Shown: positions 7,170 to 23,246 of the stretch, piece by piece | Layout: every line of letters starts with the position of its first letter | Numbering within the stretch: position 1 is the first letter of the stretch | IMG/VR virus record: IMGVR_UViG_3300027896_000231 | Coordinates: 1 to 23,246 of that record | Length of the DNA: 23,246 nucleotides | Direction: 5' to 3' (one strand) | DNA from: a virus | Translations under genes and position numbers: made by a program | The notes under the pieces: model-generated | The model's database searches: none | What the model was told of the DNA's origin: nothing | The model's input: only the letters and a program-made list of their open reading frames with translations

Positions 7170-7406
7170 TTATTGATATTTGAGTTTCAGAAAGACGAAT
7201 TCTTCATCGGAAATGGATATGAGTAAATCCTCATTTACAGTGATTTTTGTTTTATAGCCCTTCAATTCTAAGAAATTACCCAAATACATGCGAGTCATTG
7301 CTTCATTAGAGTTGCTATACGCTGAAATGAATTCTAATAGATCATTATGCCACTGATCTTCCATCCATTTAAATAACCATTGATTTTTGTCGAAACTGAC
7401 AATCAT
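7170..7406 (-). CDS. Hypothetical protein (78 aa)
   Basis: This is a soluble protein with aromatic, acidic N-terminal helices (WLFKWMEDQWHNDLLEFI) and a beta-rich C-terminal half (ITVNEDLLISISDEEFVFLKL). The ATG overlaps the TGA of the metalloprotease-like gene (ATGA, 7403-7406), so it is probably translated by coupling and may be a partner of that protein. I recognise no family. Confidence 0.65.
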   Translation of the reverse strand: MIVSFDKNQWLFKWMEDQWHNDLLEFISAYSNSNEAMTRMYLGNFLELKGYKTKITVNEDLLISISDEEFVFLKLKYQ

Positions 7407-7795
7407 TGGAAAATCTGCTTGTTTTCCTTACCGTAGATTTTGATGTATTTTCCGGCCATCATGTCAGCCATAGACTCAATTGGGCTTCCGGGATAACTGT
7501 CACCAGCTTCAATCATACCTAATTCGCTTTGGCGCCAGTGTACGAGTTCATGAAAAACTGTACGTAGAATATCGACTAAATTACGATTTTTAACATAAAC
7601 CCAAACATTATTGCTGCCTTCAATATGTTTTCCAGTATGATGACCTTGCTGTGCTTCTTCATGATTGAAACTTAGAACGACTTTGGGTTTATTTTTAATG
7701 TGTAGCTGGTTAATCGTCCAATTAACAAATTTACCTACCTCATCTTTCAAGAACGAAGTATTATTATTTTCCGTAGTAAATTCTCTGCTGCGCAT
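7403..7795 (-). CDS. Small HExxH metalloprotease-like protein with capsid-targeting-like N-terminus (130 aa)
   Basis: FHELVHWRQSE (81-91) contains the zinc-protease signature H82-E83-x-x-H86. It is followed by PIESMADMMAGKY (105-117), where E107 or D111 could be the third metal ligand, as in small phage and SprT/WLM-like peptidases. A His-rich patch, GHHTGKH (51-57), precedes it. The N-terminus MRSREFTTEN has the same form as other proteins in this window and resembles T4 capsid-targeting peptides (M-x-x-x-E-F-x-x-E), so the protein may travel inside the head. A GATAAATA motif sits 5 nt upstream of the ATG and no Shine-Dalgarno sequence is visible. A non-proteolytic role is possible, since only the fold signature can be seen. 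Confidence 0.65.
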   Translation of the reverse strand: MRSREFTTENNNTSFLKDEVGKFVNWTINQLHIKNKPKVVLSFNHEEAQQGHHTGKHIEGSNNVWVYVKNRNLVDILRTVFHELVHWRQSELGMIEAGDSYPGSPIESMADMMAGKYIKIYGKENKQIFQ

Positions 7796-7800
7796 TAAAA

Positions 7801-7808
7801 TATTTATC
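7801..7808 (-). promoter_or_regulatory. Late-promoter-like motif GATAAATA, 5 nt before an ATG
   Basis: GATAAATA is followed by TTTTA and then the ATG of the metalloprotease-like gene; it overlaps the stop of the preceding gene. If it acts as a -10 element, transcription would begin at or near the start codon and yield an almost leaderless message. Confidence 0.45.
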
Positions 7809-8991
7809 TTTTTGATCTGGCTAATGCTAATACTCTAGGTGTGGGGTTTTTGATATATTCAATTGCCTCGCTATTTTGATTAACCGCAGCCAATTGCAAG
7901 GCTTCACTGGGGTCGTTGATATAGTAGATTGCTAGTCCATTCTGGTTAACTGCGGCCAATTGCACAGCTTCACTGGGGTTTTTGATATATTGGATATGAT
8001 GGCCATATCGTTTGATTGCGGCCAATTGCACATCTTCACTGGGGTTTTTGATGTAGTTAATTATGTATCCATTATGTTTAACTGCGGCCAATTGCACAGC
8101 TTCACTGGGGTTTTTGATATATTTAATTACATCATAGCCAGAAAGCATATTATTTTCATCATCATTCTCATATTTAAATGCGGCCCATATGATAGACTGC
8201 CCTATTATACCTGTATATTCTTGAGGTCCATGGTGTTCACCTACTTCAGTTATATAAAAAAAACATGGGTGACTTATTTTAGTCTCTGCCAGTAACTTCT
8301 CTAATTCAATATCTCGATTAAATGTTCCTTGCTTTTTCCATGCAGACATGCGAGTTTTTAATAAAGTCAATAGTTCTTTTCTATTTTGGCGAGCAGTGGT
8401 TATACGAGTATCGTTATGTGATACCATTGCTATCAATTTTTTGGGATTAAACCCAGTTTGTTTTTGGAATTGTTTAGCATCTATCCTTTTGTCATCTTTA
8501 TTGAAATATTGTGCTTTATCTAAATTTTTATGAGTAGCAATGGCCCACTTTTCACTGGATGTTTTATCTAAACAATAAATTAACACTATTTCTCTATCTA
8601 AGAAGTACGTATCAAAAGCACCCGCATGTGGGCGAGCAGTACACCACTTAGTATTACGTCCATGATAGCAACTGGCATCGTGGTTTAGAGGAATAACTAC
8701 CAACCATTGATCATTTTCAAATAGTGTGATGCTTTCGCCAACTGATTTCTTTCTCTTTATCTGAGTAGTAGTGGGGGTTGCAGATTTTGATTGAACAAAT
8801 TGACTGAATTTATCCCACCCTTGCCCTGCCCACCAGTCAATATTTCGTTCATTTCCCTGTACTTGGTTTTTGTTGACTAGTTGGCGATACTGTGCAATTG
8901 CTTTCTGCACCTGATTAGGGTCTGCTTCTGTATTAAATTTCACAGCAGCAGTCTTATAATCTTCAACCAATATTAATTCATAAAATCGCAT
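7804..8991 (-). CDS. Modular protein with WCT-type domain and five 22-aa repeats (395 aa)
   Basis: I place the start at the ATG at 8989-8991, giving MRFYELILVED, rather than at the longer TTG at 9004-9006, because the TTG lies in a GATAAATA promoter-like motif and the ATG restores a capsid-targeting-like N-terminus (x-x-E-L-I-L-V-E). Numbering from the TTG, a helical region (20-75) is followed by SVGES (88-92), a linker like those in the large proteins. Next comes a compact domain with WLVVIP (101-106), GRNTKWCTARP (116-126) and a following F-x-x-Y, a pattern seen in several phage proteins of unknown activity. Residues 296-400 form four full copies and one partial copy of a 22-aa repeat, YIKNPSEAVQLAAVxxNGxx, resembling DUF4116-type helical repeats used for protein contacts. 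An injected or head-packaged effector is a reasonable guess. Confidence 0.7.
   Translation of the reverse strand: MRFYELILVEDYKTAAVKFNTEADPNQVQKAIAQYRQLVNKNQVQGNERNIDWWAGQGWDKFSQFVQSKSATPTTTQIKRKKSVGESITLFENDQWLVVIPLNHDASCYHGRNTKWCTARPHAGAFDTYFLDREIVLIYCLDKTSSEKWAIATHKNLDKAQYFNKDDKRIDAKQFQKQTGFNPKKLIAMVSHNDTRITTARQNRKELLTLLKTRMSAWKKQGTFNRDIELEKLLAETKISHPCFFYITEVGEHHGPQEYTGIIGQSIIWAAFKYENDDENNMLSGYDVIKYIKNPSEAVQLAAVKHNGYIINYIKNPSEDVQLAAIKRYGHHIQYIKNPSEAVQLAAVNQNGLAIYYINDPSEALQLAAVNQNSEAIEYIKNPTPRVLALARSKR
7807..8121 (-). repeat. Tandem 66-nt coding repeats (22 aa each)
   Basis: Four full units and one degenerate unit encode YIKN/YIND-P-S/T repeats at the C-terminus of the WCT-domain protein. 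At DNA level the block recurs as variants of ggccaattgcacagcttcac (plus strand) with high identity, indicating expansion by duplication followed by drift. Confidence 0.85.
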
Positions 8992-8996
8992 TAATG

Positions 8997-9004
8997 TATT
9001 TATC
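8997..9004 (-). promoter_or_regulatory. Late-promoter-like motif GATAAATA, 5 nt before an ATG
   Basis: GATAAATA is followed by CATTA and the ATG of the WCT-domain gene. The motif, the 5-nt spacing and the next bases (TTAATGCG) repeat the arrangement at 7793-7808. No Shine-Dalgarno sequence is present. Confidence 0.45.
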
Positions 9005-9031
9005 AAGGGCTACTATTAAGCAGCCCTTATA

Positions 9032-9634: not shown

Positions 9635-11482
9635 TCATTTATACTGATCTTGTACCATTTTGTTGTACATATCCGTATTTCCCTTTTCTAAAAAGTACAA
9701 GCTACGTGAGTTATCTTTGTATGTTATATTTTTATAAATATCGTCTGGTTTGTACCATACATTATTATCCGGTAACATCGCATTTCGATATGATGTAATA
9801 TCCGCATCTCCTGCTATAGCACCTATAAGTCCTGACTGATCAGCGTCCATGTAATTTTTATTAATCGCTTCCTGCTCTTCTTTATTAGCAGCAATTACCT
9901 TTTCTGCACGTTTTTCTGCATCGCTCTTATCTTCTTCTTTCTTTTCATTATTGGTGCTTATTCCATTATTAATTAATGTATCTGTAAATGTTGTGACATC
10001 TATTGAAACAGCTTGAGACTTAATAGAATTATCAATTAGAGATGCTACTAGTTCAACATCATCATTCTTTTCAATCGATTTATTACCATTAATAATGTTG
10101 TTAATTAGTTGATCAACGATAGGATCTACTGTTGACTCTGATTCAGTAGTATTAACGTACACATACTCAGAAAAATTATTCTCTGATGAGGTATTAGGTT
10201 GTTCTTCAAATGATACTGTATTATCATTTACTGATATATCAGCTTTATTTATTGCTAAAATAGATTCTTCTATACTTGAAGTATCATTGGTATTACTATT
10301 ATCGCTCTGAGATATACTACTTTGTATTTCTTGTTGAGTAGCATTATTCATAGCAATACCATTATTTAAAATATCCATAGTTAAATCTTGTGTGTCAGAA
10401 CCTGCTTCTTGTGTATTATCTGTGTTACTAATAGAAGATTCTTGTGCTACTGAAGACGTATTTTTAACTGGTGTAGAAGTTTGTTGGGTAGGCGTATCTA
10501 TAACTGACAATACTATCGATAGTATATTTTTATCTATATTATCTGATAATGACGGGGAAGCATCTGTTAACGATTGGATAGTAGGGGATACAGAAGATGT
10601 AGAAAGAGATGAGGCTATATCAGTAGTATTACTTCCAACTATAGTATCGTTTGTTGCTAGTTCTTGTACTGACGGTGTAGTGTCAACGATGCTACTAATG
10701 TTGGTATTAATAGCAGTTTTAACTGCTTGCGGAACTGTAGTTGATGTAGGGCTCGTCATACTTTTTATAATGCATGAAGTATCGCTAGGTGTTAATGTAC
10801 AATCTACTGTAGGTGGTTTATAATCAGATAAAAAAGTAAAGGTTTTATTTGATAATAATGGTACATTATTACCATTATAAATCTGATAATACTCTGTAGC
10901 TGTATTACCCATAATACCAGCTGTAAAAACATGATTACCAGATTGAGTCATGTTTCCATAATTGATCATGAAGTTGTTATTTGAAAACAAAGATATTTCA
11001 AAATTTACTAAATTTTGAGTTCCATATTCTTTAGTGTACCATCCTATGTCAAATTCATTAGCAGATGATCTTATAAAAGGGCTAAGTGGGTCAACTAGAT
11101 CCGCCCATGCAGCAAAAATACTATTACTCCAGTTGGTGTTAGGTAATTGAACTCCGTCACAACATCCATTACCATGATTAATAAAACTTAAAAATCCATT
11201 TGAACTAATAATAGCGTTATTATAATTATTACCGAAAAAATTAAAAGTAAACGGTAACGTAACAGTTGAAGTATTATCGTCACCTAAATATAAAGGCATT
11301 CCGTTAGTTATAGTTGAATTTATGTTAGATAACGGAATAGTGGTTGTATCTAGTGAATATGTCTTTACAGTTCCGTCAATCCCAGTACCTGATGCTACTC
11401 CTACTGTTATCTGAGTAGGAGCTTCCTGAGCATACACATCAGGTACAAACAATATGATCAGTAGTGCAAATAACTTTTTCAT
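9635..11482 (-). CDS. Secreted beta-sandwich protein with long Ser/Thr/Asn-rich region (615 aa)
   Basis: A classical signal peptide (KK, then LFALLIILFVPDV, cleavage near YA-Q19) predicts export by a Gram-negative host. Residues about 70-215 form a beta-rich domain with LPFTFNFFGNNYNNAIISSNGFLSF, a pattern of extracellular nidogen-like or adhesive beta-sandwich domains, and a CC pair nearby. Residues 225-520 are low-complexity Ser/Thr/Asn/Asp with recurring SIxxxD and S-Q-S motifs. The last 70 residues are a distinct conserved-looking tail (NNVWYKPDDIYKNITYKDN) that I recall from other aquatic phage proteins. Its ATG overlaps the stop of the Asn-rich gene (ATGA). Secretion before lysis is unusual for a phage product. 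Possible roles are cell-surface alteration or aggregation of cells. Confidence 0.75.
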   Translation of the reverse strand: MKKLFALLIILFVPDVYAQEAPTQITVGVASGTGIDGTVKTYSLDTTTIPLSNINSTITNGMPLYLGDDNTSTVTLPFTFNFFGNNYNNAIISSNGFLSFINHGNGCCDGVQLPNTNWSNSIFAAWADLVDPLSPFIRSSANEFDIGWYTKEYGTQNLVNFEISLFSNNNFMINYGNMTQSGNHVFTAGIMGNTATEYYQIYNGNNVPLLSNKTFTFLSDYKPPTVDCTLTPSDTSCIIKSMTSPTSTTVPQAVKTAINTNISSIVDTTPSVQELATNDTIVGSNTTDIASSLSTSSVSPTIQSLTDASPSLSDNIDKNILSIVLSVIDTPTQQTSTPVKNTSSVAQESSISNTDNTQEAGSDTQDLTMDILNNGIAMNNATQQEIQSSISQSDNSNTNDTSSIEESILAINKADISVNDNTVSFEEQPNTSSENNFSEYVYVNTTESESTVDPIVDQLINNIINGNKSIEKNDDVELVASLIDNSIKSQAVSIDVTTFTDTLINNGISTNNEKKEEDKSDAEKRAEKVIAANKEEQEAINKNYMDADQSGLIGAIAGDADITSYRNAMLPDNNVWYKPDDIYKNITYKDNSRSLYFLEKGNTDMYNKMVQDQYK

Positions 11483-12594
11483 TCTTCTGCGCTAGTGAAC
11501 CATGCTTTATGATAATCAGGACGGTCTTTCTTGTGATCACCCCAAGACTTTACCGCTTCAGTTCCAATCTTGCCCATATATGGACATTGTGTTCCTGCCA
11601 TTTCCATAGCCTTGAATACACGCTCGTCTTGACACATTAGGGCAACAGCAGCAACCTTCATACCCATATCATATAATGTCTTTGAAAGTTTTAATCTTTC
11701 GCAGTTTTCATCACGTATAGATTTACCTGCACTAATACCCACAATCTGTGTTTGTACGGCTCCACTTACCCCGCTTACGCAAACGTCCTGACTCATATTA
11801 CTAATTGCAGGAGAAATCGCACTTGGTGGCGGAGATTTCACAACCTGTTCTATTTTAGAATAAGAGTAGTTTTCGTTATTATTTAAGTTAGTATTCACGT
11901 TGTTTGTTAACACTTTACTGTCACTAGTACTAACACTGTTGTTTTGATTAACGTTGGTGTTTTTGTTATCACTAGCTGAAACATTATTATTTGTATTAAC
12001 ACTAACCGTATTATTACTGTTGTTATTGTTATTTGTGCTATTAATATTACTATTGTTGTTGTTAGTTGCAATACTATTACTATTTACGGTACTTATGTTG
12101 TTATTAGTATTAGTGCTAACACTAACATTATTGTTAGTACTTGTATTGGTATTAACATTATTGTTATTGCTAGTACTGGTATTAACATTATTGTTAGTAC
12201 TTGTATTGGTATTAACATTATTATTGGTTAATGTACCATAATTATAGTTTGTGTTACTATTAGTATTAGTACTATTAACTGTATTTAAATTGGTATTAGT
12301 ACTGGTTGTAGCATTGTTATTGTTATAGGTAACACTACCACTCATCACGTTGTTATTTGTATTAACATTGGTGCTGGTACTAACATTATTGTTATTATTA
12401 GTATTGGTGCTAGTGCTAGTATTTTCGTTTATGTTAGTACTAGTGCCGCTTTGAATATTATAATTGGTATTTGTTATATTTTCTGTTGTAGTATTATCTG
12501 TTTGAACTAAAGTTGCAGCCGTTTGACCATAAACGGTGACAGAACCAAAACCCAACAGTAAACAGCATAATAACTGTTTTTTAGTTGTATACAT
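11479..12594 (-). CDS. Secreted Asn/Thr/Ser-rich, prion-like protein with conserved C-terminal domain (371 aa)
   Basis: The N-terminus is a signal peptide (MYTTKKQLLCCLLLGFGSVTVYG, cleavage near G-Q24). Residues about 35-245 are almost entirely Asn, Thr, Ser and Val in short irregular repeats of the N-x-N/T-S-T type, a composition typical of amyloid-prone or adhesive low-complexity regions. Residues 250-371 form a separate folded-looking domain with four or five cysteines, containing SPPPSAISPAI, CVSGVSGAVQTQ, GKSIRDENCERLKLSK and CQDERVFKAM. I recall this domain from aquatic phages but know no function for it. The ribosome site GGAG is well spaced (7 nt). The leader from 12694 carries a late-promoter-like motif and a hairpin. 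It is the first gene of the envelope cassette. Confidence 0.8.
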   Translation of the reverse strand: MYTTKKQLLCCLLLGFGSVTVYGQTAATLVQTDNTTTENITNTNYNIQSGTSTNINENTSTSTNTNNNNNVSTSTNVNTNNNVMSGSVTYNNNNATTSTNTNLNTVNSTNTNSNTNYNYGTLTNNNVNTNTSTNNNVNTSTSNNNNVNTNTSTNNNVSVSTNTNNNISTVNSNSIATNNNNSNINSTNNNNNSNNTVSVNTNNNVSASDNKNTNVNQNNSVSTSDSKVLTNNVNTNLNNNENYSYSKIEQVVKSPPPSAISPAISNMSQDVCVSGVSGAVQTQIVGISAGKSIRDENCERLKLSKTLYDMGMKVAAVALMCQDERVFKAMEMAGTQCPYMGKIGTEAVKSWGDHKKDRPDYHKAWFTSAEE

Positions 12595-12987: not shown

Positions 12988-13503
12988 TTATTTTCTTATG
13001 AATTCTGGAACGTTTCCTACACGATATCGGTTTCCAGAACCTTTTAGAGTCAAACCACCGTTACCCAATGCTTTTTCTACATCCTTAAATAAATGAGCAG
13101 GTACTGTAACTAATACTGCAACTGTTGGGTTTAGTTCGTTATATTCATTAACGTAAATGCTTTTATTTGGGTCTGATTTAACATCAGAGTTAATAACAGC
13201 CATGAATCCATCTAGACTTTGTCCTGCTTGTCCTTGCATCTTTTCTTTATCTGATGGTTTAGCCTTCATGTATTTTTTAACGAAAGCTATAAGCTGTGGC
13301 AATTCAATTCTATGTTTGAAACCGTCGTTAAACTTAATCTTATATTTTCCGTCTACGTCAATAGCCTTACGTACTTGCTGTAAGATATGCGGAACTTCAT
13401 CGAAATCAGCATCATCGTGTACGCTCTCAGGTAGGTACTTAGCTGCTTTTTTAGTTCTTCTATTTACAACTTTCGTTGATTCAATTATTTGTTTAGATTT
13501 CAT
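12988..13503 (-). CDS. Putative head-packaged protein of unknown function (171 aa)
   Basis: The N-terminus MKSKQIIES resembles a capsid-targeting peptide with an I-x-E cleavage-like end (I6-I7-E8-S9). The body has an acidic patch (HDDADFDEVPHILQQVRKAI), a small beta/alpha region (YKIKFNDGFKHRIELPQLIAFVKKYM) and a C-terminal part with VAVLVTVPAHLFKDVEKAL. I do not recognise the fold, although similar proteins occur in aquatic T4-like phages. It has its own late-promoter-like motif (13523-13530), a good AAGGA ribosome site (13510-13514), and a terminator right after it, so it is a monocistronic late unit. Confidence 0.7.
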   Translation of the reverse strand: MKSKQIIESTKVVNRRTKKAAKYLPESVHDDADFDEVPHILQQVRKAIDVDGKYKIKFNDGFKHRIELPQLIAFVKKYMKAKPSDKEKMQGQAGQSLDGFMAVINSDVKSDPNKSIYVNEYNELNPTVAVLVTVPAHLFKDVEKALGNGGLTLKGSGNRYRVGNVPEFIRK

Positions 13504-13534: not shown

Positions 13535-14824
13535 TTATTTAGAGTTGGGATTTTCAAATACTTTGCGACCTATAATACCATGACCTACTTCTCTAGGCTC
13601 TGGAAAACGTATAGGATTAACCATTGGATATAAGTATTTTGTTCCACCTGGCTTAATGTCAAAAGTACTACCCGGTTTAACTAAGTGATATGGTTCTAAT
13701 CTTCTGAATTTTGTTTCAGAAACAGCCATAGGATTACCTATTTTAACACTGCCTATAGCCATTGCTTTACCTTTACCAGTTTTAACTATAGCAACACGCC
13801 TACCTATATACGGTTTCAATGAGTCGGTATCTCTTGTCTCAAGTTTCTTTTTACCGTCAATAATTAATTCAGCATAATCTAAATCGCCGTCTGATCTTAC
13901 ATTGATGCCTATATCAGGTATTTCAATGCTTTCTTCTACTTGTTGCTTTTTATCAAGAATTTCATTCCATTTGTCAGCAATACTATTTTTTAAATCTACA
14001 GTAGACTTAAAGTTATTCTTTTGCATGTATTTGATTAACCAAACTGCGCTATCTCTGTCATTAGAATCAGGCTTACGTGCGTTACTTAAATCAACACCTA
14101 AGTTTTGGTCTTCGTGACGAGAACCATACCAACGTAGGTTCTTTAATAATCTACGGGCACGATCACTAAGATGTGATTCGTTGTCTTTAGTAATTAGTTC
14201 AATCCACGATTTAACAAAATCTGTAGGTTTTCTTCCCCAATACCCACCATGCATTGTCCCTCGCAATAAATCACGTTCACTGCTAGGACTAACTGATCTA
14301 CGTTTATCTAACAAACGCCATGCACGTTCATCGGTGTAAAGGTATGCAGGAATTCCTTGTTGTTTAGCACTTATTAATAATCTGCGGGTCTCTGTACTAC
14401 GTGAAGCACTTTGTTCTTTTAATAAGACATGTATTTCAGTAACAGGAGTTGTGGGTATTGTTGGTTCTTTGCTGAACACACGGTCTTCTGATTCTCTAGT
14501 ACGTGTTCCGTGACTACTCAACCACGCTCTTTCCCAATAATCAATTGGCTTAACGATATAATGTTGATTAAACCAATCGCCGTTAAGTTTAAATAAAACT
14601 GCGCTACTGCCTACAAATCTGTGATAGTCGCCTTGCGGTGTTCGTGTTAAGCTGAGAAAGAAAGGATAGCCTTTAGGTGCATAATATTCTTCACTGGTAT
14701 TTCCAGTAACACTAGATAATTCAAACTGTCCTGAACTTAATATTTTTAATGCTGCTCTAGTTCCAGTAAAGTGATAAACTACACTAGTAGCACGTTCCGT
14801 TAAAATAAATTCTTTTGCTTTCAT
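13535..14824 (-). CDS. ADP-ribosyltransferase-like domain fused to an ASCH/PUA-like domain, with capsid-targeting-like N-terminus (429 aa)
   Basis: The N-terminus MKAKEFILTERA matches the T4 capsid-targeting style and would be cut after L8-T9-E10. Residues 15-135 recall small ADP-ribosyltransferase folds: VYHFTGTRAALKILSSGQFEL (16-36), FFLSLTRTPQGDYHR (55-69), and TRESEDRVF (109-117) where E111-x-E113 could be the catalytic acidic pair. A helical middle follows, then QVEES (295-299), which resembles the linker/cleavage motif of the large proteins. Residues 300-429 contain YAELIIDGKKKLETRDTD (317-334), VAIVKTGKGKAMAIGSV (344-360) and F-R-R-L-E-x-Y-H, a pattern of ASCH/PUA-like RNA-binding domains. 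T4 injects a capsid-carried ADP-ribosyltransferase (Alt), so a similar early takeover role is plausible. Catalytic assignment is by eye. Confidence 0.5.
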   Translation of the reverse strand: MKAKEFILTERATSVVYHFTGTRAALKILSSGQFELSSVTGNTSEEYYAPKGYPFFLSLTRTPQGDYHRFVGSSAVLFKLNGDWFNQHYIVKPIDYWERAWLSSHGTRTRESEDRVFSKEPTIPTTPVTEIHVLLKEQSASRSTETRRLLISAKQQGIPAYLYTDERAWRLLDKRRSVSPSSERDLLRGTMHGGYWGRKPTDFVKSWIELITKDNESHLSDRARRLLKNLRWYGSRHEDQNLGVDLSNARKPDSNDRDSAVWLIKYMQKNNFKSTVDLKNSIADKWNEILDKKQQVEESIEIPDIGINVRSDGDLDYAELIIDGKKKLETRDTDSLKPYIGRRVAIVKTGKGKAMAIGSVKIGNPMAVSETKFRRLEPYHLVKPGSTFDIKPGGTKYLYPMVNPIRFPEPREVGHGIIGRKVFENPNSK

Positions 14825-14839
14825 TATTAGTGAACCAGT

Positions 14840-15274
14840 CTATCTTGTACTAACAACACTTTTGAGCATCCAACGATGTTTAGTGTGTGCTTCAATTCTT
14901 TCTGCTAGATAATTTTCTATGCCATATTGTTTTTCTTGGCCGGCAAGTTCAAAACAATTGTTTAAACATTGAATAACAATTTCGTTATCATTTATTAATT
15001 CAGCAAACATTAATTCTGCTTTTGGGATCATAAGCTGGCCTTTAATGTCACTCAATTCTACAAAACGCTCCATACTACCTGGAGTATATGCATTTAATGT
15101 ACGAATATGTTCAGCGGTTTTATCTATGCTACTATATACTTCTTCATATAAGTTACCAAAAAACTGATGATATTGAGGGAAGTTAGGACCCTCAACATTC
15201 CAATGAAATTGCTGCGCTTTAATAACAAAATTATAACTATTCGCTAGTAATTTTTTTAAACTTTCTGATAACAT
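14840..15274 (-). CDS. dps: Dps-like mini-ferritin with complete ferroxidase centre (144 aa)
   Basis: KAQQFHWNVEGPNFPQYHQFF (19-39) is the Dps signature. The metal ligands H24, H36, D51 and E55 keep exactly the spacing of Dps ferroxidase sites (12, 15 and 4 residues), and AEHIRTLN follows as AExIRxLG in the family. The remaining residues form the expected long helices of a four-helix bundle. The protein is shorter than most bacterial Dps because it lacks the basic N-terminal DNA-binding extension. Dps proteins form 12-subunit shells that oxidise and store iron with hydrogen peroxide, and protect DNA. The start overlaps the stop of the 980-aa gene (TAATG), so it is translationally coupled to probable virion proteins, and a protective or packaged role is plausible. 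Confidence 0.88.
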   Translation of the reverse strand: MLSESLKKLLANSYNFVIKAQQFHWNVEGPNFPQYHQFFGNLYEEVYSSIDKTAEHIRTLNAYTPGSMERFVELSDIKGQLMIPKAELMFAELINDNEIVIQCLNNCFELAGQEKQYGIENYLAERIEAHTKHRWMLKSVVSTR

Positions 15275-18216
15275 TATCTGCGTAATCCTTTCATAATTGA
15301 GCTTTCTTCTTGATATTCATCTTGGTCGTCAAGATAACTTACATCGCTAGAATGAAAACTATGACTACCGTAGTTATCTAAGTGTACAATTACGAATGCT
15401 TTTTGTCTACCGAAACTTTCGATGTTTCCCTTTTCACCTTGAAAGTTAACATTGCCTGAAATTACCACTCGATCATTAACATGCAAGTTTGATGCACCTT
15501 CCGTTATACCTTGACTGTATTCTTTAGCAGCACGAATATCGATATCACCGTTTTTATTACGATGACTCCAAGCAGCAATACGTTTACCGTTCATAGTAAC
15601 ATGTACACCATTTTGATCCGATTTAAAATCAGCACTATCATCTAATAGTAAACTGTTGACACGTTCTATATCTCTAGACCATTTTTCGTAGTTACTGTAG
15701 CGTTTAAAATCTTTAGTATCTGCTACTGGTAGATTGACACCGCGGGAACGAATACCAAATTTATCTGTGTGCGGAATACCAGTAGTACCACGAGGATCGT
15801 GAGAGGATCCTTCTTTGGTCATCTTTGGCATATTCCAAGGTCCTGCAGCCATCTGATCTTGAAACGCTTTATTCAAATCTGCTTGATTAGCCTTCATCAT
15901 ATTAGCTGATGCTGCCATGTGTTTATTGAACCAATCAGGATCGCCAGGATGCGGGAACCCATGCGGATTTGGTTGAGCTTGTCTTCCACCTGATCCCGGT
16001 GGGGGAGGTGGTGGTTGTTGTCTTCCACCTGATCCCGGTGGGGGAGGTGGTGGTTGTTGTCTTCCACCTGATCCCGGTGGGGGAGGTGGTGGTTGTTGTC
16101 TTCCACCGTAGTATTGTTGCTGACTTTGTTGATTACCACTGGCTGTATATTCTTCAGGTTTAAGTTGATATTTACGAGCTAACGCATTTAGTTGTCTCTT
16201 TAACAGATCGATTTCGTGTTGCGGTTTGCCTTTACTATTTTGAATTGCTTTATACAGTTGCTGTGCTGTGTTTAATGCTCCGGCACGAGTACCAGCTTCT
16301 TCTACATTTTCTTTTTCTGAGCCTTCCGCCACACCTTGCCCACCATCGTTGATAATGTCCTGCACTTCGTCTTCGCTCATGCCCATGTAACTGGCAATTT
16401 CCCACACTTCGTTACCGTTGCGGTATTGATCCATGACCATATCTTCAATGCTGATTCCTTCTGAGCCTTCCGACACACCTTGTTCATCACTGGTGTTTAA
16501 CTGTCTGCGCAACTTGCTTGCCATCTGTAGATAGTGTTGTTTCTTGATATCGTTCTTGGTTGCTTTGGCACGTTGTTCGTAGTCTGTGATCATTTGCCAT
16601 AAACGATTTTGACTTCGTTCAGTACCTTCCTCTACACCTTCTTGTTGTTTTTGACGCCATACACTAGAATTCTTTAATCTGCTAGTTGAACCCCATGCAA
16701 TATTGTGTCCGTTGTTTACGAAAATTAATTTATTTAACACTACTGCAGGTTTGAATGGATCAGAACCAAACGCACCGGACACATCTCCTATGTTTCTAGC
16801 ACCTTTGCTAAGTAACATTTGCCAAAATTTTTCAAGTGGATCTTGTTTATACCATATCTTATGTTCTTTATCATTTAAATTTCTGTTAAGAAAAATGTAT
16901 CCAGGGTCACGCATTCTTGCACCATCACCGCGAGTCCATACTCTTGTACCGGGTAATTTGAAGTGCAATGGAACAAATCCAGCACCTTTTGGATTCATTT
17001 CAGCGTTGAAGTCTAACACAAGTTTTTGTACAAAATCAGAAGAAGTTCTTTTTACTGAGCCTTCATTCACACCTTGTTCACGCTTTTCTTTCTCAGCTTT
17101 AATTATATCTCTAAGTTGTTTGCCTGGACCATCTAAACCATAATGACTTCTGCGAAGTGGATCTGTTATTTCTTGTGGTCGGTGTTCATATCCCGCTACT
17201 GTATGAACATGCATAGTTTTTTCGCCGTATTTTTGTTTAAGACGATCAAATTCACTCTTTCCAAATCTTTTAATTATTTCTTCGTCTTCCATCCCTGAGT
17301 TCCAGGCGTGCATTATATTGTTATGGTATGATTCCTTAACACCTTTCTTGCCTATTCTTTCAGCCATAATCGATTTGATCAATGGTATTTGCTCTTTAGC
17401 ACGTTTTACGACATGGTGATCCATTGGGGTCACTGGTTCTTCTTCTAAACTCTTTTTCCAAAAATCAAGTAATGATTGTAATTGGGCGTTTGTTTTAGAT
17501 TTTAATTCTTTAATTCTATCGTAATCTTCTTTACCCTTATTCTTACCTTCTGACACACCTTTCTTAGTAGGTTGTGGTCGACCGTTGCCCTTATTCATTT
17601 TTTTTAGTTTTTCAAGTTGTTCGGCTTTATTTAATTCGTTTTTTAGTCGAATAACTTCCTTTCTCAGCATAGGATCTTTACTTGTATCTGGATCCATTTG
17701 TAAGTCTTGTATTGCTTTACGTCTATCTTCAAGATCACTATACTCTTCCATCATACCAGATGCTTTAGGCTTAAACTTACGATATGATTGACCCATACCA
17801 CCTGGTGAACCTATATGTTCGTCTAAATCACCTAATGGCTTTTCTAATACTTTTTCCATTGGGCTTTTTTCAATGCCTAATCCTGCACCACCTACTACAC
17901 CTGCACGATAACCTTCTTCGATATCTTCTTCATGTAAACCAGACTTTGTTGCATGAGCTAATGCACCTAACGGATAAATAAACTGTTTTTTATAGTTAGA
18001 TGACATTGCTTGCTCTAATGCCTTTAAGAATTCTTCATTCTGAACCAATGCATTAAGTTTATTTGAATAATCTTTAATGTAATGTTTTAATGTGTCTACA
18101 GACATTTTTCCATAGCCCACTACATCAATTACTGCGCTATCATTATTTGGCTCTTGTGCCAATTCAGATTTTTCAGATAGTTCCCCAAATTCAAGACCTT
18201 TGATTATATTACTCAT
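15274..18216 (-). CDS. Large modular protein with repeated G-V-x-E-G/S linkers; candidate cleaved internal-head polyprotein (980 aa)
   Basis: Unrelated short modules are joined by near-identical motifs: GVSEG (220-224), GVKES (292-296), GVNEG (382-386), GVEEG (527-531), GVSEG (580-584), GVAEG (628-632) and GITEG (903-907). NVEEAG (637-642) and IEEG (99-102) are similar. Modules include a helical start (1-150), a charged helix (155-215) and a beta-containing domain (390-520, KLPGTRVWTRGDGAR). Short helical units (533-575 and 588-625, the latter like an HTH with ASYMGMSEDEVQDII) follow. Then come a Pro-rich repeat (705-745), another small domain (800-895) and an SH3-like end (909-965, VNDRVVISG, GEKGNIESFG). 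The linkers fit V/I-x-E before G/S, close to the (L/I)-x-E site of T4-type prohead protease. No known enzyme motif was found. The start has only a weak ribosome site, and the gene lies 1 nt after the 337-aa gene. Confidence 0.75.
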   Translation of the reverse strand: MSNIIKGLEFGELSEKSELAQEPNNDSAVIDVVGYGKMSVDTLKHYIKDYSNKLNALVQNEEFLKALEQAMSSNYKKQFIYPLGALAHATKSGLHEEDIEEGYRAGVVGGAGLGIEKSPMEKVLEKPLGDLDEHIGSPGGMGQSYRKFKPKASGMMEEYSDLEDRRKAIQDLQMDPDTSKDPMLRKEVIRLKNELNKAEQLEKLKKMNKGNGRPQPTKKGVSEGKNKGKEDYDRIKELKSKTNAQLQSLLDFWKKSLEEEPVTPMDHHVVKRAKEQIPLIKSIMAERIGKKGVKESYHNNIMHAWNSGMEDEEIIKRFGKSEFDRLKQKYGEKTMHVHTVAGYEHRPQEITDPLRRSHYGLDGPGKQLRDIIKAEKEKREQGVNEGSVKRTSSDFVQKLVLDFNAEMNPKGAGFVPLHFKLPGTRVWTRGDGARMRDPGYIFLNRNLNDKEHKIWYKQDPLEKFWQMLLSKGARNIGDVSGAFGSDPFKPAVVLNKLIFVNNGHNIAWGSTSRLKNSSVWRQKQQEGVEEGTERSQNRLWQMITDYEQRAKATKNDIKKQHYLQMASKLRRQLNTSDEQGVSEGSEGISIEDMVMDQYRNGNEVWEIASYMGMSEDEVQDIINDGGQGVAEGSEKENVEEAGTRAGALNTAQQLYKAIQNSKGKPQHEIDLLKRQLNALARKYQLKPEEYTASGNQQSQQQYYGGRQQPPPPPPGSGGRQQPPPPPPGSGGRQQPPPPPPGSGGRQAQPNPHGFPHPGDPDWFNKHMAASANMMKANQADLNKAFQDQMAAGPWNMPKMTKEGSSHDPRGTTGIPHTDKFGIRSRGVNLPVADTKDFKRYSNYEKWSRDIERVNSLLLDDSADFKSDQNGVHVTMNGKRIAAWSHRNKNGDIDIRAAKEYSQGITEGASNLHVNDRVVISGNVNFQGEKGNIESFGRQKAFVIVHLDNYGSHSFHSSDVSYLDDQDEYQEESSIMKGLRR
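15982..16107 (-). repeat. Three perfect 39-nt tandem repeats encoding a Pro-rich segment
   Basis: Three identical 39-nt units (15982-16020, 16021-16059, 16060-16098) plus a 9-nt partial unit encode GGRQQ-Pro6-GS repeats in the 980-aa protein. Perfect identity implies recent slippage expansion. The repeat keeps the reading frame (13 codons) and probably forms a flexible or polyproline linker. Confidence 0.95.
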
Positions 18217-18217
18217 A

Positions 18218-19231
18218 TTATTTTTTCACACAGTTGTTTACGCGGACGCCGCCTTTCATTTTAGTGCCTTGCTTTTTATAACCTTTCCAACATTTAGGAT
18301 CTAAACGTTGCTTTTCTTCTTTAACACTTTGTTTTTTAGTTTGGAAAAGATTGAATGCTTGTCGTGCAGTAACCGGCATTGATCCAGCACGAAAACTTAA
18401 AAAGTTAGGTGGATCATCAAGGTTGATATCGTATCCACCAAGTTCACCCCTATACATAATACCAAGATCAGCTACTGGTTTACTTGTACCGTCTTTAAAA
18501 AAGTGTATAATCTTGAAAGTTCCAGTTGGTCCGCTCAATCCATTTGGATTCTTTCTGATTCGCACAGTTAATGGTGCATCTTTATACGAGTCATACCATT
18601 CTAAATCTTTGTTATGACCGTGCCACTGATGTTTAGATTCTTCCATACCTTCTTCAAAGTTACTCATACCACCTGCAATTACACCGCCTGTCATTTCATC
18701 GGTACGTGTTTCATATTCTACTTTATTTGCTACGGTTTGTAAATAGTCTGCGGCTAATGTTATGTATGACTGTTGCCAAGCCATCAATCCTTGATCTTCA
18801 CTACGGTCTTTTAATAACTCATATAAACGCATAGCACTTTTGGCTGCTGCTAATAATTCGCTACGTGCCATAGAAACTTCGTGATCTCTACGGTCTGCTT
18901 TATGTGGAATAAAACTCTTATCTTTCTTTATGAGCTGACCAGGATTGATAATCAAATCCTGTTCTGATAATTCTGCTTCACTAATCTTATTTTCAACAAT
19001 ACTATTAGCGTATGGACCTTTCTTTTTGGTCTTACCTTTCATTACTTTTTTAATTGGTTCTAGACCTTCAACATCTGTAGCGTCACCTTCATAGAAAGGC
19101 TTATTGGTAGTTTTACCTTTGAACAATGAGCCTGCTCTTTTTTGTGGCTTACCCATTGGCATAGCTACAGTAGCTACTGAACCTGAAGCTGTTGCCCCTG
19201 CCGAAGATTCTAGAACTTGTTTAATTTTCAT
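18218..19231 (-). CDS. Putative head-packaged protein with capsid-targeting-like N-terminus (337 aa)
   Basis: The N-terminus MKIKQVLESSAG parallels MKSKQIIES of the 171-aa protein and could be cut after V6-L7-E8. It is followed by a low-complexity, basic segment (ASGSVATVAMPMGKPQKRAGSLFKGK) that I recall from structural proteins of aquatic phages. Residues 118-172 are helical (SELLAAAKSAMRLYELLK, WQQSYITLAADYL). MSNFEEGMEES (189-199) resembles the MSKFEEG stretch of the ligase-like fusion protein and may be another linker. A beta-rich domain (205-295) and a basic C-terminus with two Cys (LDPKCWKGYKKQGTKMKGG, NNC) follow. The function is unknown. The late-promoter-like AATAAATA (19255-19262) lies upstream. 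Confidence 0.7.
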   Translation of the reverse strand: MKIKQVLESSAGATASGSVATVAMPMGKPQKRAGSLFKGKTTNKPFYEGDATDVEGLEPIKKVMKGKTKKKGPYANSIVENKISEAELSEQDLIINPGQLIKKDKSFIPHKADRRDHEVSMARSELLAAAKSAMRLYELLKDRSEDQGLMAWQQSYITLAADYLQTVANKVEYETRTDEMTGGVIAGGMSNFEEGMEESKHQWHGHNKDLEWYDSYKDAPLTVRIRKNPNGLSGPTGTFKIIHFFKDGTSKPVADLGIMYRGELGGYDINLDDPPNFLSFRAGSMPVTARQAFNLFQTKKQSVKEEKQRLDPKCWKGYKKQGTKMKGGVRVNNCVKK

Positions 19232-20276: not shown

Positions 20277-23246
20277 TTATTTTTCCGGTAGATAGTCTTG
20301 TGATTCTTCTACAGGAGCTGCTGGATTTTTATTTATTTTAGAAAGTATGTATGTAATTCTATGATTGTCCTCGTCTATGGATGACTTATATCCCCAAGAA
20401 TTGGCATAACGCTCAACTAGTTTATTATATAATTTGATTCTACTTTGGTTATGAATTTTATTTGCTTCAAAAACCAATTTGTTTGGGTGTTTCTTTTTAA
20501 TAAACTCTTTGATAGCTTTTAAAACAGTAGCAAATACTCTTTGCGAGTCGCCTTCTCCTGTTACTACAAATTTATTGTTTCTATGAAATTCAACTACGTA
20601 TTCATTGTGGTTTTCTTCATCTGCATTGTGGTTTTCTTCATCGAATGCTACAGTTAAATACGTACCGTCTTCTAACATCGTTATAGCAGCATAAGAACCA
20701 TACTTTCTGTCTACCCAGTCAAAAGAATATGGCTTATCAAAACTTTCTTTTACACCGTTGGATGAACCTGCTGCACGGTATGCGTCCCACTTCTGACTAA
20801 AGCCCGATGCAGGTGCTTGATCACCCTGCATTACTTTATAGTATTGTACTATTTCTGCTGGTACTTTACCTGTTGCTTTATAATCTCTATAAGCAGAATC
20901 AGTGAATGTACTCAGCATGCCTGGATCCCATTTAGGGTGCATATCTTGTAAAGCATCATGTATCTTCTTATACATGCCATCTTGTTTATTGATCGTACCT
21001 GATTGTGTAGCGGTTGTAGTTGTCTTTGATACGCCTGTATCGGCAGCCTTTGCACTTGATGCAGGATTTAATGCCATTGCTGCACCTAATCCTATAGCAC
21101 CTAATGCTGTTCCAAATTTGCCTTCTTCAAATTTACTCATACTGCTGGAACTGTTTACGTGTTCATTAAAACCATCTGCTTGACTCTCATCGCAGTCATA
21201 ATCACAATTTACGTCCCCGCAATATGGGCATTCTATATGACCTACGCCATATCTATGTTCATCATCATGTTGTTTAGAAAATGCATCAGCATACTTTTCA
21301 TGCTCTGATTTTTTCTTTTTAAATGAAACAACATCACCTTCCTTAACACCTTTCTTTTTCTTTTTAGCAATAGCAATAGCTGCTTGCTGTGCAGGGTTAG
21401 CTGCTTCTAGCTGTTTCTTACTAGCTTCTAATAACTTGTACAATCTATTTTTCTGTTCACCAGTAGCTTCATTGATTAATGGTTTGATTCTATTATACAA
21501 TGTTTTGATATCTTCCATAGTAGCAACAGCATTGTTAACTAGATATTTGTCTAATATTTGCTTGATTTGTTTGTGTTGCTTACTTCTTGGATATAGTTGC
21601 TTGATGATACTAAGTCTACCAGCATCATCTGCATTCTGATACATATCACGAACTTGTGTTCCTGAATATACACTATTACCGTTGATATTAAAATCATGTT
21701 TGCTTGTTACAAACACGTAGCCGTGATTAGCAAATGGTTGTAGTGGTTGATTTGGATTATAAGGTTGGAAGTAACCAGGACTACCATCTTTCTTAGTATA
21801 TGCCATCGGATCACGTTCACTACGTACTAATATGAATGCATCCTTTTCTGGATCATACTTTTGTAATATTTCTTTAGGGTTGATAGGGGTACTAACAGCA
21901 ATATCAGGGAAGTCTTCTGGTTTAACACCTGTTTGTGTTGCTAAGAATTTCTTTTCTTGATACGGTATAGGACGTTCTTTTACATTTCCACTAGCAGCAA
22001 CATAGAAGTCTGCATTTGGAAATGCTTTCTTTGCTTGTAAGTATGATGATAAATGACCTTGATGAAACGGTTGAAATCCACCACCATATACAACTACTGT
22101 TTTACCAGTCGCTCTTGCGTTTGGATTCTTAGCCATTCTTTCTTTCATTTCACTGCTAGTTACTTTTGCTGCTAAGCCGCTAGGTAATTTAATAACAAGT
22201 CCTTCAATCATATTACCCAATTGATCTTTACCTTTGATGTTAGGGCTTGCTATGATAGTATCACTTAATTTCTTTCTTGCTTCTGCTAATAGTTCTTTCG
22301 CTTTAGTTTTTTGTTCTGAATCACCACGTGATTTAATTGCAGCTAGTAATTTGTCAGCATTTTTAGCAATAGGATTAACAATCTTACTCACATCTAAATT
22401 AGTTTGTGATAATTGGTTATTAACCATTTTAATTTCTTTATTGCTATAACTCATTAGCATTTGTTTGATCTTGTCACTATATGGACTTTCTTCACCAGTG
22501 CTATATGTTTTAACACTATGAGGAACTATAGTTAATACACTGCCTAACTTCTTAGGATCATACGCAATTCTAACAAATCTAATACCCTTAGCATCTGTTT
22601 TACCTGCAGGGGTATACATCATTTCTGCTTCAACGATTGTATCTTTAGGAATCTTTTTAATAAAGTCTGATGACAATACTATCTTTAATACTTCATCATA
22701 CTTTTTAAGTTCTGGACCTATATTACGTGTATAGTCGCCATAGTTATTAATGTACATTGGTTTAGCATCTTTACCAGTCATAAAGAATGCCTTGCCCTGA
22801 GGGTCTTTACCGAAACGAATAGGACCGCCGTCTACTTTTAAACTAATGTCAGCATCATCTAGCTTGCCGCCCATGTTAGCAATTTCTTGACACATACGAA
22901 TGAATTCAGCATCTTTCATTTCTACTGAACTACCTGGATTATAAATGTGCGGTATTCCTTTACGCTTATAACTAGGTTCTGCGTCTTCATTGACTGGTGT
23001 CATTCTATACGATTTCTTGTAATCCATCATCATCTGATCAAGGTTGTCTGGCCTTGATATACCTAACTTTTTCATAGCATGATTGATTGCTACTGACTTT
23101 TCTGCTAAGTCTCTATTAGGATCATTTTTATACATTCCTTGTGCATCAGGTCCTATAGTCTTTTGCAAGAACTGTTGAAATACTATAGCCTTTTGTTTTT
23201 TAGTCATCAACTTGTTCATAAGATCAAGAATGCCATCAAATGACCA
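20277..23246 (-). CDS. Ligase-like adenylation domain / HxGH nucleotidyltransferase fusion with C-terminal modules (5' end outside window)
   Basis: The frame stays open to the right edge (nine codons above the first ATG at 23217-23219, which lacks a ribosome site), so the true start is probably outside. Numbering from that ATG, KVDGG (128-132) fits motif I of DNA/RNA ligases, VEAEM (196-200) could be motif III, IEGLVIK (338-344) motif IV and AAKV (350-353) motif V. VYGGGFQPFHQGH (377-389) is an HxGH cytidylyl/NMN-adenylyltransferase motif, with SGTQVRDMY (519-527) as its likely C-terminal signature. After GVKEG (624-628) come a Cys cluster (C664, C667, C672, C676), a hydrophobic Ala-rich segment (701-727), GVKES (822-826) and an alpha/beta domain (830-960, with RVFATVLKAIKEF and SRIKLYNKLVER). 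It could act in nucleic acid repair or NAD metabolism. The G-V-x-E linkers tie it to the 980-aa protein. Confidence 0.7.
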   Translation of the reverse strand, partial: WSFDGILDLMNKLMTKKQKAIVFQQFLQKTIGPDAQGMYKNDPNRDLAEKSVAINHAMKKLGISRPDNLDQMMMDYKKSYRMTPVNEDAEPSYKRKGIPHIYNPGSSVEMKDAEFIRMCQEIANMGGKLDDADISLKVDGGPIRFGKDPQGKAFFMTGKDAKPMYINNYGDYTRNIGPELKKYDEVLKIVLSSDFIKKIPKDTIVEAEMMYTPAGKTDAKGIRFVRIAYDPKKLGSVLTIVPHSVKTYSTGEESPYSDKIKQMLMSYSNKEIKMVNNQLSQTNLDVSKIVNPIAKNADKLLAAIKSRGDSEQKTKAKELLAEARKKLSDTIIASPNIKGKDQLGNMIEGLVIKLPSGLAAKVTSSEMKERMAKNPNARATGKTVVVYGGGFQPFHQGHLSSYLQAKKAFPNADFYVAASGNVKERPIPYQEKKFLATQTGVKPEDFPDIAVSTPINPKEILQKYDPEKDAFILVRSERDPMAYTKKDGSPGYFQPYNPNQPLQPFANHGYVFVTSKHDFNINGNSVYSGTQVRDMYQNADDAGRLSIIKQLYPRSKQHKQIKQILDKYLVNNAVATMEDIKTLYNRIKPLINEATGEQKNRLYKLLEASKKQLEAANPAQQAAIAIAKKKKKGVKEGDVVSFKKKKSEHEKYADAFSKQHDDEHRYGVGHIECPYCGDVNCDYDCDESQADGFNEHVNSSSSMSKFEEGKFGTALGAIGLGAAMALNPASSAKAADTGVSKTTTTATQSGTINKQDGMYKKIHDALQDMHPKWDPGMLSTFTDSAYRDYKATGKVPAEIVQYYKVMQGDQAPASGFSQKWDAYRAAGSSNGVKESFDKPYSFDWVDRKYGSYAAITMLEDGTYLTVAFDEENHNADEENHNEYVVEFHRNNKFVVTGEGDSQRVFATVLKAIKEFIKKKHPNKLVFEANKIHNQSRIKLYNKLVERYANSWGYKSSIDEDNHRITYILSKINKNPAAPVEESQDYLPEK
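20603..20642 (-). repeat. Short 21-nt tandem duplication
   Basis: A 19-nt sequence occurs twice with a 2-nt spacer (20603-20621 and 20624-20642) and duplicates seven codons (DEENHNA/DEENHNE, residues 860-873 region) in a predicted surface loop of the C-terminal domain. It looks like a recent slippage event that kept the frame. Confidence 0.9.

Follow-up and report, generated by a model that had tools for sequence, protein, structure and literature searches.

A candidate head-cargo polyprotein with an in-frame 18-nucleotide joint in jumbo T4-superfamily phages

In lambdoid phages, the linker or boundary-sequence model of mosaicism holds that recombination takes place at short conserved stretches bordering the modules. 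The internal head proteins of T4 (IPI–III and Alt) represent a different kind of system, in which each protein carries a capsid targeting sequence that is cut by the prohead protease gp21, an enzyme that cleaves after L/I-x-E (PMC9026906). Here we describe a locus with features of both, an open reading frame (ORF) of 980 amino acids (15274..18216, minus strand) in a virus contig of 23 246 bases (IMG/VR record IMGVR_UViG_3300027896_000231; this whole contig is termed the window). The ORF comprises eight modules separated by seven G[VI]xE[GS] linkers, or joints, and each joint would be, or descend from, an in-frame element of 18 nucleotides (nt), CAAGGTGTGGCGGAAGGC, which encodes Q-G-V-A-E-G. 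We consider it probable that the product is a polyprotein packed as head cargo by a jumbo T4-superfamily phage, and that its modules are exchangeable cassettes, the joint being both a recombination joint and a probable maturation site. What the sequences themselves show is the excess of the motif, its conservation as DNA, the exact module boundaries, the constraint on its residues, and the protease and site-rich scaffolds of relatives; packaging, cleavage, ejection and the route of recombination are the parts of this explanation that we infer.

The seven motifs reported in the initial annotation are all present at the positions given there, in frame on the minus strand; composition shuffles of the polyprotein give 0.11 expected copies, and none of 20 000 reached seven. 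Two further strict motifs reported in a fusion ORF (20277..23219, minus strand) were also found (GVKEG, 21336..21350; GVKES, 20742..20756; 0.05 expected, composition shuffles, p 0.0016), as were the looser VEES (13928..13939) and VGES (8731..8742), while the remaining window proteins (5499 amino acids) contained no strict copy. That these are chance occurrences or an ordinary low-complexity linker has nothing to recommend it beyond the shortness of the motif and is almost certainly wrong, being refuted by the shuffles and by conservation of the joint DNA across roughly 100 contigs, drawn from many samples, among the matches listed. Pairwise comparison of the modules revealed no convincing mutual similarity, the best matches (E 0.007–0.03) being between helical segments, and the annotated dissimilarity of the modules is upheld beyond these weak matches.

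The window DNA polymerase is closest to those of jumbo T4-superfamily phages (Agrobacterium phage Atu_ph07, 48%), and the relatives with the same linker are uncultured phages of this kind. No match to the whole polyprotein was found among 50 697 phage records. Searching IMG/VR yielded three related loci: L001, which is 96% identical across the C-terminal part but carries some 100 additional residues at linker 7, as well as a GVAEG junction absent from the window; L002, which has only module 6 in common with the window polyprotein; and L003, located in a 124 kb contig (G003) whose gene order matches that of the window (phrog_1574-like, p337-like, polyprotein, Dps, DNA polymerase). A degenerate E-Q-G-V-A-E-G pattern retrieved at least 120 stretches, many of which, among the matches listed, lie in genes for multi-module proteins, where as many as seven joints occur per protein; a synonymous-variant control pattern retrieved just 85 stretches, with 16 of 80 classified matches in multi-motif genes.

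At the DNA level, QGVAEG is written CAA GGT GTG GCG GAA GGC almost everywhere. These codons stand out from the background of the same proteins (GCG 90% vs. 9%; GTG 90% vs. 19%; GGT 95% vs. 43%), counted with no pre-filter for GGT or GCG, unlike the scan for near-copies described below. In matched alignments (45–90% protein identity), codon identity at four-fold sites was 0.83–0.92 in joints vs. 0.43–0.57 in module residues, and a conserved control module gave 0.37 (0.30 expected). Across 16 contigs the element (≤ 2 mismatches) occurred in dozens of copies and its reversed control in none. The near-copy scan (352 copies in 1.92 Mb, pre-filtered on GGT or GCG) found 347 of 352 in sense and in frame, with conservation ending sharply at the element edges. 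The element was absent from seven related isolates. In the window just one of nine joints is exact to the DNA core, and all nine, which were picked by that motif, keep V/I-x-E-G/S; in this lineage the DNA element has mostly decayed and the protease-type residues have been kept. The literature search, limited to open-licence papers, found no paper on GVAEG in a phage context. Two further readings of the element were rejected: a bacterial or host source, given that 257 Gb of GTDB genomes held 26 single matches in no cluster, i.e. at chance level, and a Chi- or transfer RNA-like site, the element not being found genome-wide or in other frames.

An effect of the conserved codons on messenger RNA or the ribosome, as an inter-module pause or internal initiation, would accord with the sense and in-frame placement, with conservation of the rare Ala codon GCG and with the likeness of GGAAGG to a Shine–Dalgarno core. 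It leaves unexplained, however, why homology ends exactly at the element, and the ORFs remain open although the exact element has gone from eight of nine window joints; we regard this as very unlikely. The element could alternatively be the recognition site of a dedicated enzyme (a homing endonuclease or recombinase) in an integron-like system, with protease-site coding perhaps an added use. Its length (approximately 18–20 nt), sharp edges and identical sequence in phages of differing GC content fit such a target, and free-standing GIY-YIG-like ORFs (by eye) lie near such genes in L002 and L003. A pure DNA target, however, need not be essentially absent outside coding frames, as this element is; no enzyme was identified, and one GIY-YIG-like ORF searched against Pfam gave no match, so we judge this explanation unlikely.

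Joints also coincide with the limits of homology between proteins. In comparisons between contigs, 132 of 701 homology boundaries fell on a joint in both partners (18.8%; 0.5% expected), and 29 shared segments were bounded by joints at both ends, including one of 199 bp at 100% identity (L024/L081) and one of 507 bp at 99.8% (L107/L117). Just outside the joints identity drops to 0.16–0.35. The L024/L081 module lies near the protein start behind MKTLRDYINLIE in L024 and is internal in L081. Modules up to 100% identical thus occur in unrelated contexts, and recently transferred modules begin and end precisely at the joint. Assembly chimeras are an unlikely source of this pattern, considering the number of contigs and samples with joints and the 79–100% identity of transferred modules. 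The initial annotation missed both the role of the motif as a transfer boundary and its DNA-level conservation, synonymous sites included; with these two properties, a protease site alone is insufficient as an explanation.

One might then suppose that the joints are recombination joints and flexible linkers only, the protein staying whole as a large multi-domain effector. Neither the DNA conservation nor the exact module boundaries require cleavage, and polyvalent proteins, in the part of their description drawn on here, provide a precedent of large multi-domain phage proteins of which some are packaged unprocessed (PMC5512222). The drifted joint copies (one to five mismatches to the core) are informative in this respect. 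Their non-synonymous share per position was neutral at P5 (0.87 vs. 0.89 expected) and P4 (0.64 vs. 0.67), but reduced at P3 (0.29 vs. 0.67; only V, M and L), P2 (0.35 vs. 0.67), P1 (0.19 vs. 0.89) and P1′ (0.29 vs. 0.67). When scan-selected copies were excluded and up to six mismatches allowed, the share was again below expectation at P3 (p 4.5e-6), P2 (p 3.5e-10), P1 (p 8e-9) and P1′ (p 2.8e-3), p-values that are optimistic since joint copies are not independent, and not below expectation at P5 and P4. Decaying linkers therefore retain a hydrophobic P3, Glu at P1 and a small P1′ while Q (P5) and G (P4) drift. A protein that stays whole does not account for this persistence, nor for the cleavable-looking targeting peptides that elsewhere precede modules at the same position, and we consider it improbable. 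The alternative offered in the initial annotation, that the motif is only a flexible linker, is likewise inadequate because it leaves this residue pattern unexplained.

Since the window carries no head genes, the protease and capsid were sought in relatives. Searches for S77 and gp23 in the three nearest contigs gave no match, as these also lack head genes. An S77 (gp21-type) protease was detected in nine linker-bearing contigs, among which are all six that were tested at a length of at least 167 kb. Four contigs (G004–G007) encode both a gp23-family capsid protein (PF07068) and the S77 protease, in the order portal, core protein, protease, scaffold, capsid, where portal, core protein and scaffold were named from position and appearance. 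The scaffolds of relatives contain 11–13 [LIVMF]xE[GSA] sites (2.4–2.9 expected), some with V at P3; the DNA polymerase of these phages displays no such excess. On a sequence reading, L-x-E|N/S/T occurs in their capsid protein close to the T4 gp23 cleavage position. The linkers (V/I-x-E|G/S/A) match the gp21 substrate type, in which L/I-x-E precedes the cut and a small residue follows it, apart from V. The search for a gp21-like protease that the initial annotation had proposed, with comparison of capsid and scaffold sites, accordingly succeeded in relatives and not in the window itself.

The same modules follow either an internal joint or an N-terminal peptide of T4 type. An ASCH-like module stands after KKQQVEE|S in the window protein at 13535..14824, and in L044 it comes behind MRATEFIVE|NS, a targeting peptide resembling those of T4; a nucleotidyltransferase module is preceded by MYSFELFE|A in L064 and L069; and modules 4 and 5 are preceded in other phages by NLKE|S, QINE|S and KEQGVAE|G. 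The internal joint and the N-terminal cleavage-like site therefore hold the same place. Window neighbours begin with clear T4-like peptides (MKAKEFILTE, MKIKQVLE and MKSKQIIE), to which the polyprotein N-terminus, MSNIIKGLE, is a weaker fit. Across all loci a loose targeting-peptide pattern was enriched in joint-bearing proteins (52 of 99 vs. 359 of 1369); the strict pattern was not.

Some relatives have been detected in virions. Polyprotein modules are also found in the cyanophage ‘structural protein’ T4-GC0119 (Syn9 gp114, S-E7), and the DUF6321 module is common to these polyproteins and S-CREM2 gp137 (44–58% identity), which was found in virions, as was the cytidylyltransferase S-CREM2 gp154 (PMC10665884). 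A cytidylyltransferase of cluster T4-GC190 was likewise found in S-SM1 virions (PMC3037559), and PF01467, the Pfam family concerned, is also represented by a module in the window fusion protein. This link is indirect, in that relatives, rather than the window polyprotein itself, are placed in a virion. As a separate observation, the N-terminus of S-CREM2 gp154 (L287, 18709..19569, OR473000), MKNFSSFLTE|A, closely resembles a T4 targeting peptide.

Taken together, we propose that modules would enter, leave or be replaced at the joints by homologous recombination between short identical joints, possibly through a phage UvsX/gp32-type system that would also hold the joints identical; G003 encodes RecA/UvsX-like, UvsW-like and weakly gp32-like proteins. 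In the protein, the joint would leave V/I-x-E|G/S/A, suited to a gp21-type prohead protease. The chain would probably be packed into the prohead together with the scaffold and cleaved behind each Glu, giving small individual proteins that would probably be carried into the host with the DNA. Several points weigh against this reading. In addition to the missing head genes, V in the linkers departs from the L/I-x-E consensus of T4 gp21; P2 is constrained as well, which the ‘x’ of that consensus does not predict; joints read through alignments of diverged homologues display weak constraint and too noisy a spectrum; the cyanophage proteins that share modules have no 18-nt element; module transfers are seen, yet no recombination event or enzyme was observed; and the GVxE sites might either be cleaved elsewhere or escape cleavage. 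The cargo polyprotein cut by a prohead protease, first suggested in the initial annotation, is partly supported, by computation, through the protease and scaffolds of relatives, the modules found after either type of start, the constraint at P3, P1 and P1′ and the virion relatives, while its cleavage, virion location and ejection remain predicted from sequence.

All features of the window given below lie on the minus strand. Module 1 of the polyprotein (amino acids 1–223; 17548..18216) starts with MSNIIKGLE and ends at GVSE, within linker 1 (GVSEG, 17545..17559; four mismatches to CAAGGTGTGGCGGAAGGC, proposed cut between 17548 and 17547). Module 2 (224–295; 17332..17547) is followed by linker 2 (GVKES, 17329..17343), with seven mismatches to the core, and module 3 (296–385; 17062..17331), whose L003 counterpart is 51% identical and follows EQGVAEG, by linker 3 (GVNEG, 17059..17073; three mismatches). 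Module 4 (386–530; 16627..17061) has approximately 60% identical counterparts in L116 and L105, after NLKE|S and QINE|S, and ends at linker 4 (GVEEG, 16624..16638; four mismatches). The L116 counterpart of module 5 (531–583; 16468..16626) is 80% identical and follows KEQGVAE|G. Linker 5 (GVSEG, 16465..16479; one mismatch) and linker 6 (GVAEG, 16321..16335; the exact 18-nt core) enclose module 6 (584–631; 16324..16467), which has 91.7% DNA identity to L002 over 169 bp, bounded by linkers on both sides with unrelated flanks. Module 7 (632–906; 15499..16323) is the region within which L001 has its GVAEG junction, and includes a perfect 39-bp tandem repeat of 3.3 copies (15979..16107) encoding proline-rich RQQPPPPPPGSGG. 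Linker 7 (GITEG, 15496..15510; four mismatches) adjoins the approximately 100 amino acids of L001 that are absent from the window, and module 8 (907–980; 15277..15498) ends with SSIMKGLRR. No Pfam or PADLOC domain match was found for the polyprotein. The AlphaFold model of modules 2–6 is of moderate confidence (predicted local distance difference test, pLDDT, 60), with dips near the joints, and matched no PDB structure at E ≤ 0.001; with such a model and no PDB match, no function is assigned to any module.

Immediately downstream lies a Dps/ferritin-like protein (14840..15274), in the same order as in G003. The neighbour at 18218..19231 has the T4-like N-terminus MKIKQVLE|S and a C-terminal module that occurs after KQGVAEE in L032, and that at 13535..14824 starts with MKAKEFILTE|R and has its ASCH-like C-terminal module after QQVEE|S; the N-terminal part of the latter appears ADP-ribosyltransferase-like by eye, which brings T4 Alt to mind, although its AlphaFold model is poor (pLDDT 38). 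A further neighbour (12988..13503) starts with MKSKQIIE|S. The fusion ORF (980 amino acids) contains the cytidylyltransferase-like module (amino acids 377–465) and a DUF6934-like C-terminus, and the L124 module homologous to that at its GVKES linker begins after ESLDE|A. A small HELVH metallopeptidase-like protein (7403..7795; N-terminus MRSREFTTE|N) is standalone in the window; in L032 and L012 it is the last part of larger, modular proteins. Also encoded are a 371 amino acid ORF (11479..12594), mainly of Asn/Thr/Ser/Val repeats with a signal-like N-terminus, and a protein (7804..9006) with near-identical C-terminal repeats (YIKNPSEAVQLAAVK..., DUF4116), possibly fast-changing, and a phrog_17056 match. 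Elsewhere, a joint-bearing protein of 1481 amino acids in L033 (3032..7474) has a GNAT acetyltransferase-like module, hinting that some modules are enzymes, and in L029 (233..2863) the module HPKTWHDVDPKLGK... is present twice in one polyprotein, beside joints.

Tentatively, and with slightly less belief than doubt, we suggest a new viral cassette system, integron-like and shared across jumbo phages, in which one 18-nt element is both recombination joint and protease site, so that packing, and release as a head protein of its own, would follow automatically for any module inserted at it. If so, these viruses could go on recombining the set of proteins that their heads seem to carry, the joint would flag many uncharacterized modules that are packed for host takeover or counter-defence by uncultured jumbo phages, and there would be a natural rule by which several proteins are loaded as cargo into one phage head. 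Two open questions, how the arsenal of ejected head proteins is rapidly rebuilt and whether short conserved joints drive phage mosaicism, are linked here and become testable through a single 18-nt sequence.

Among known systems, the T4 internal proteins (PMC9026906) share with this locus a gp21-type protease and an L/I-x-E type of site, T4-like N-terminal peptides (here on neighbouring ORFs), a site-rich scaffold and cargo that varies between phages. In T4, however, every cargo protein has a gene and a short N-terminal propeptide to itself, whereas the polyprotein has many modules in one chain and internal sites that fall on a conserved DNA joint. Polyvalent proteins (Iyer et al., 2017, PMC5512222; including P1 DarA/DdrB) are similarly large, multi-domain, fast-changing and thought to be packed and injected; in the part of that account drawn on here, processing is ascribed to a zincin-like peptidase domain, and neither a repeated in-frame DNA joint nor a prohead-protease site at module borders is described. 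Cyanophage T4-GC0119 (Syn9 gp114, S-E7) and S-CREM2 gp137 have small modules (DUF6321 and others) in common with the polyproteins, linked in a chain by x-x-E|G/A/S joints, e.g. VQME|G and VTNE|G, but differ in lacking the 18-nt element. Compared with the boundary sequences of the lambdoid model, the joint described here lies within a reading frame and in addition codes for a probable processing site.

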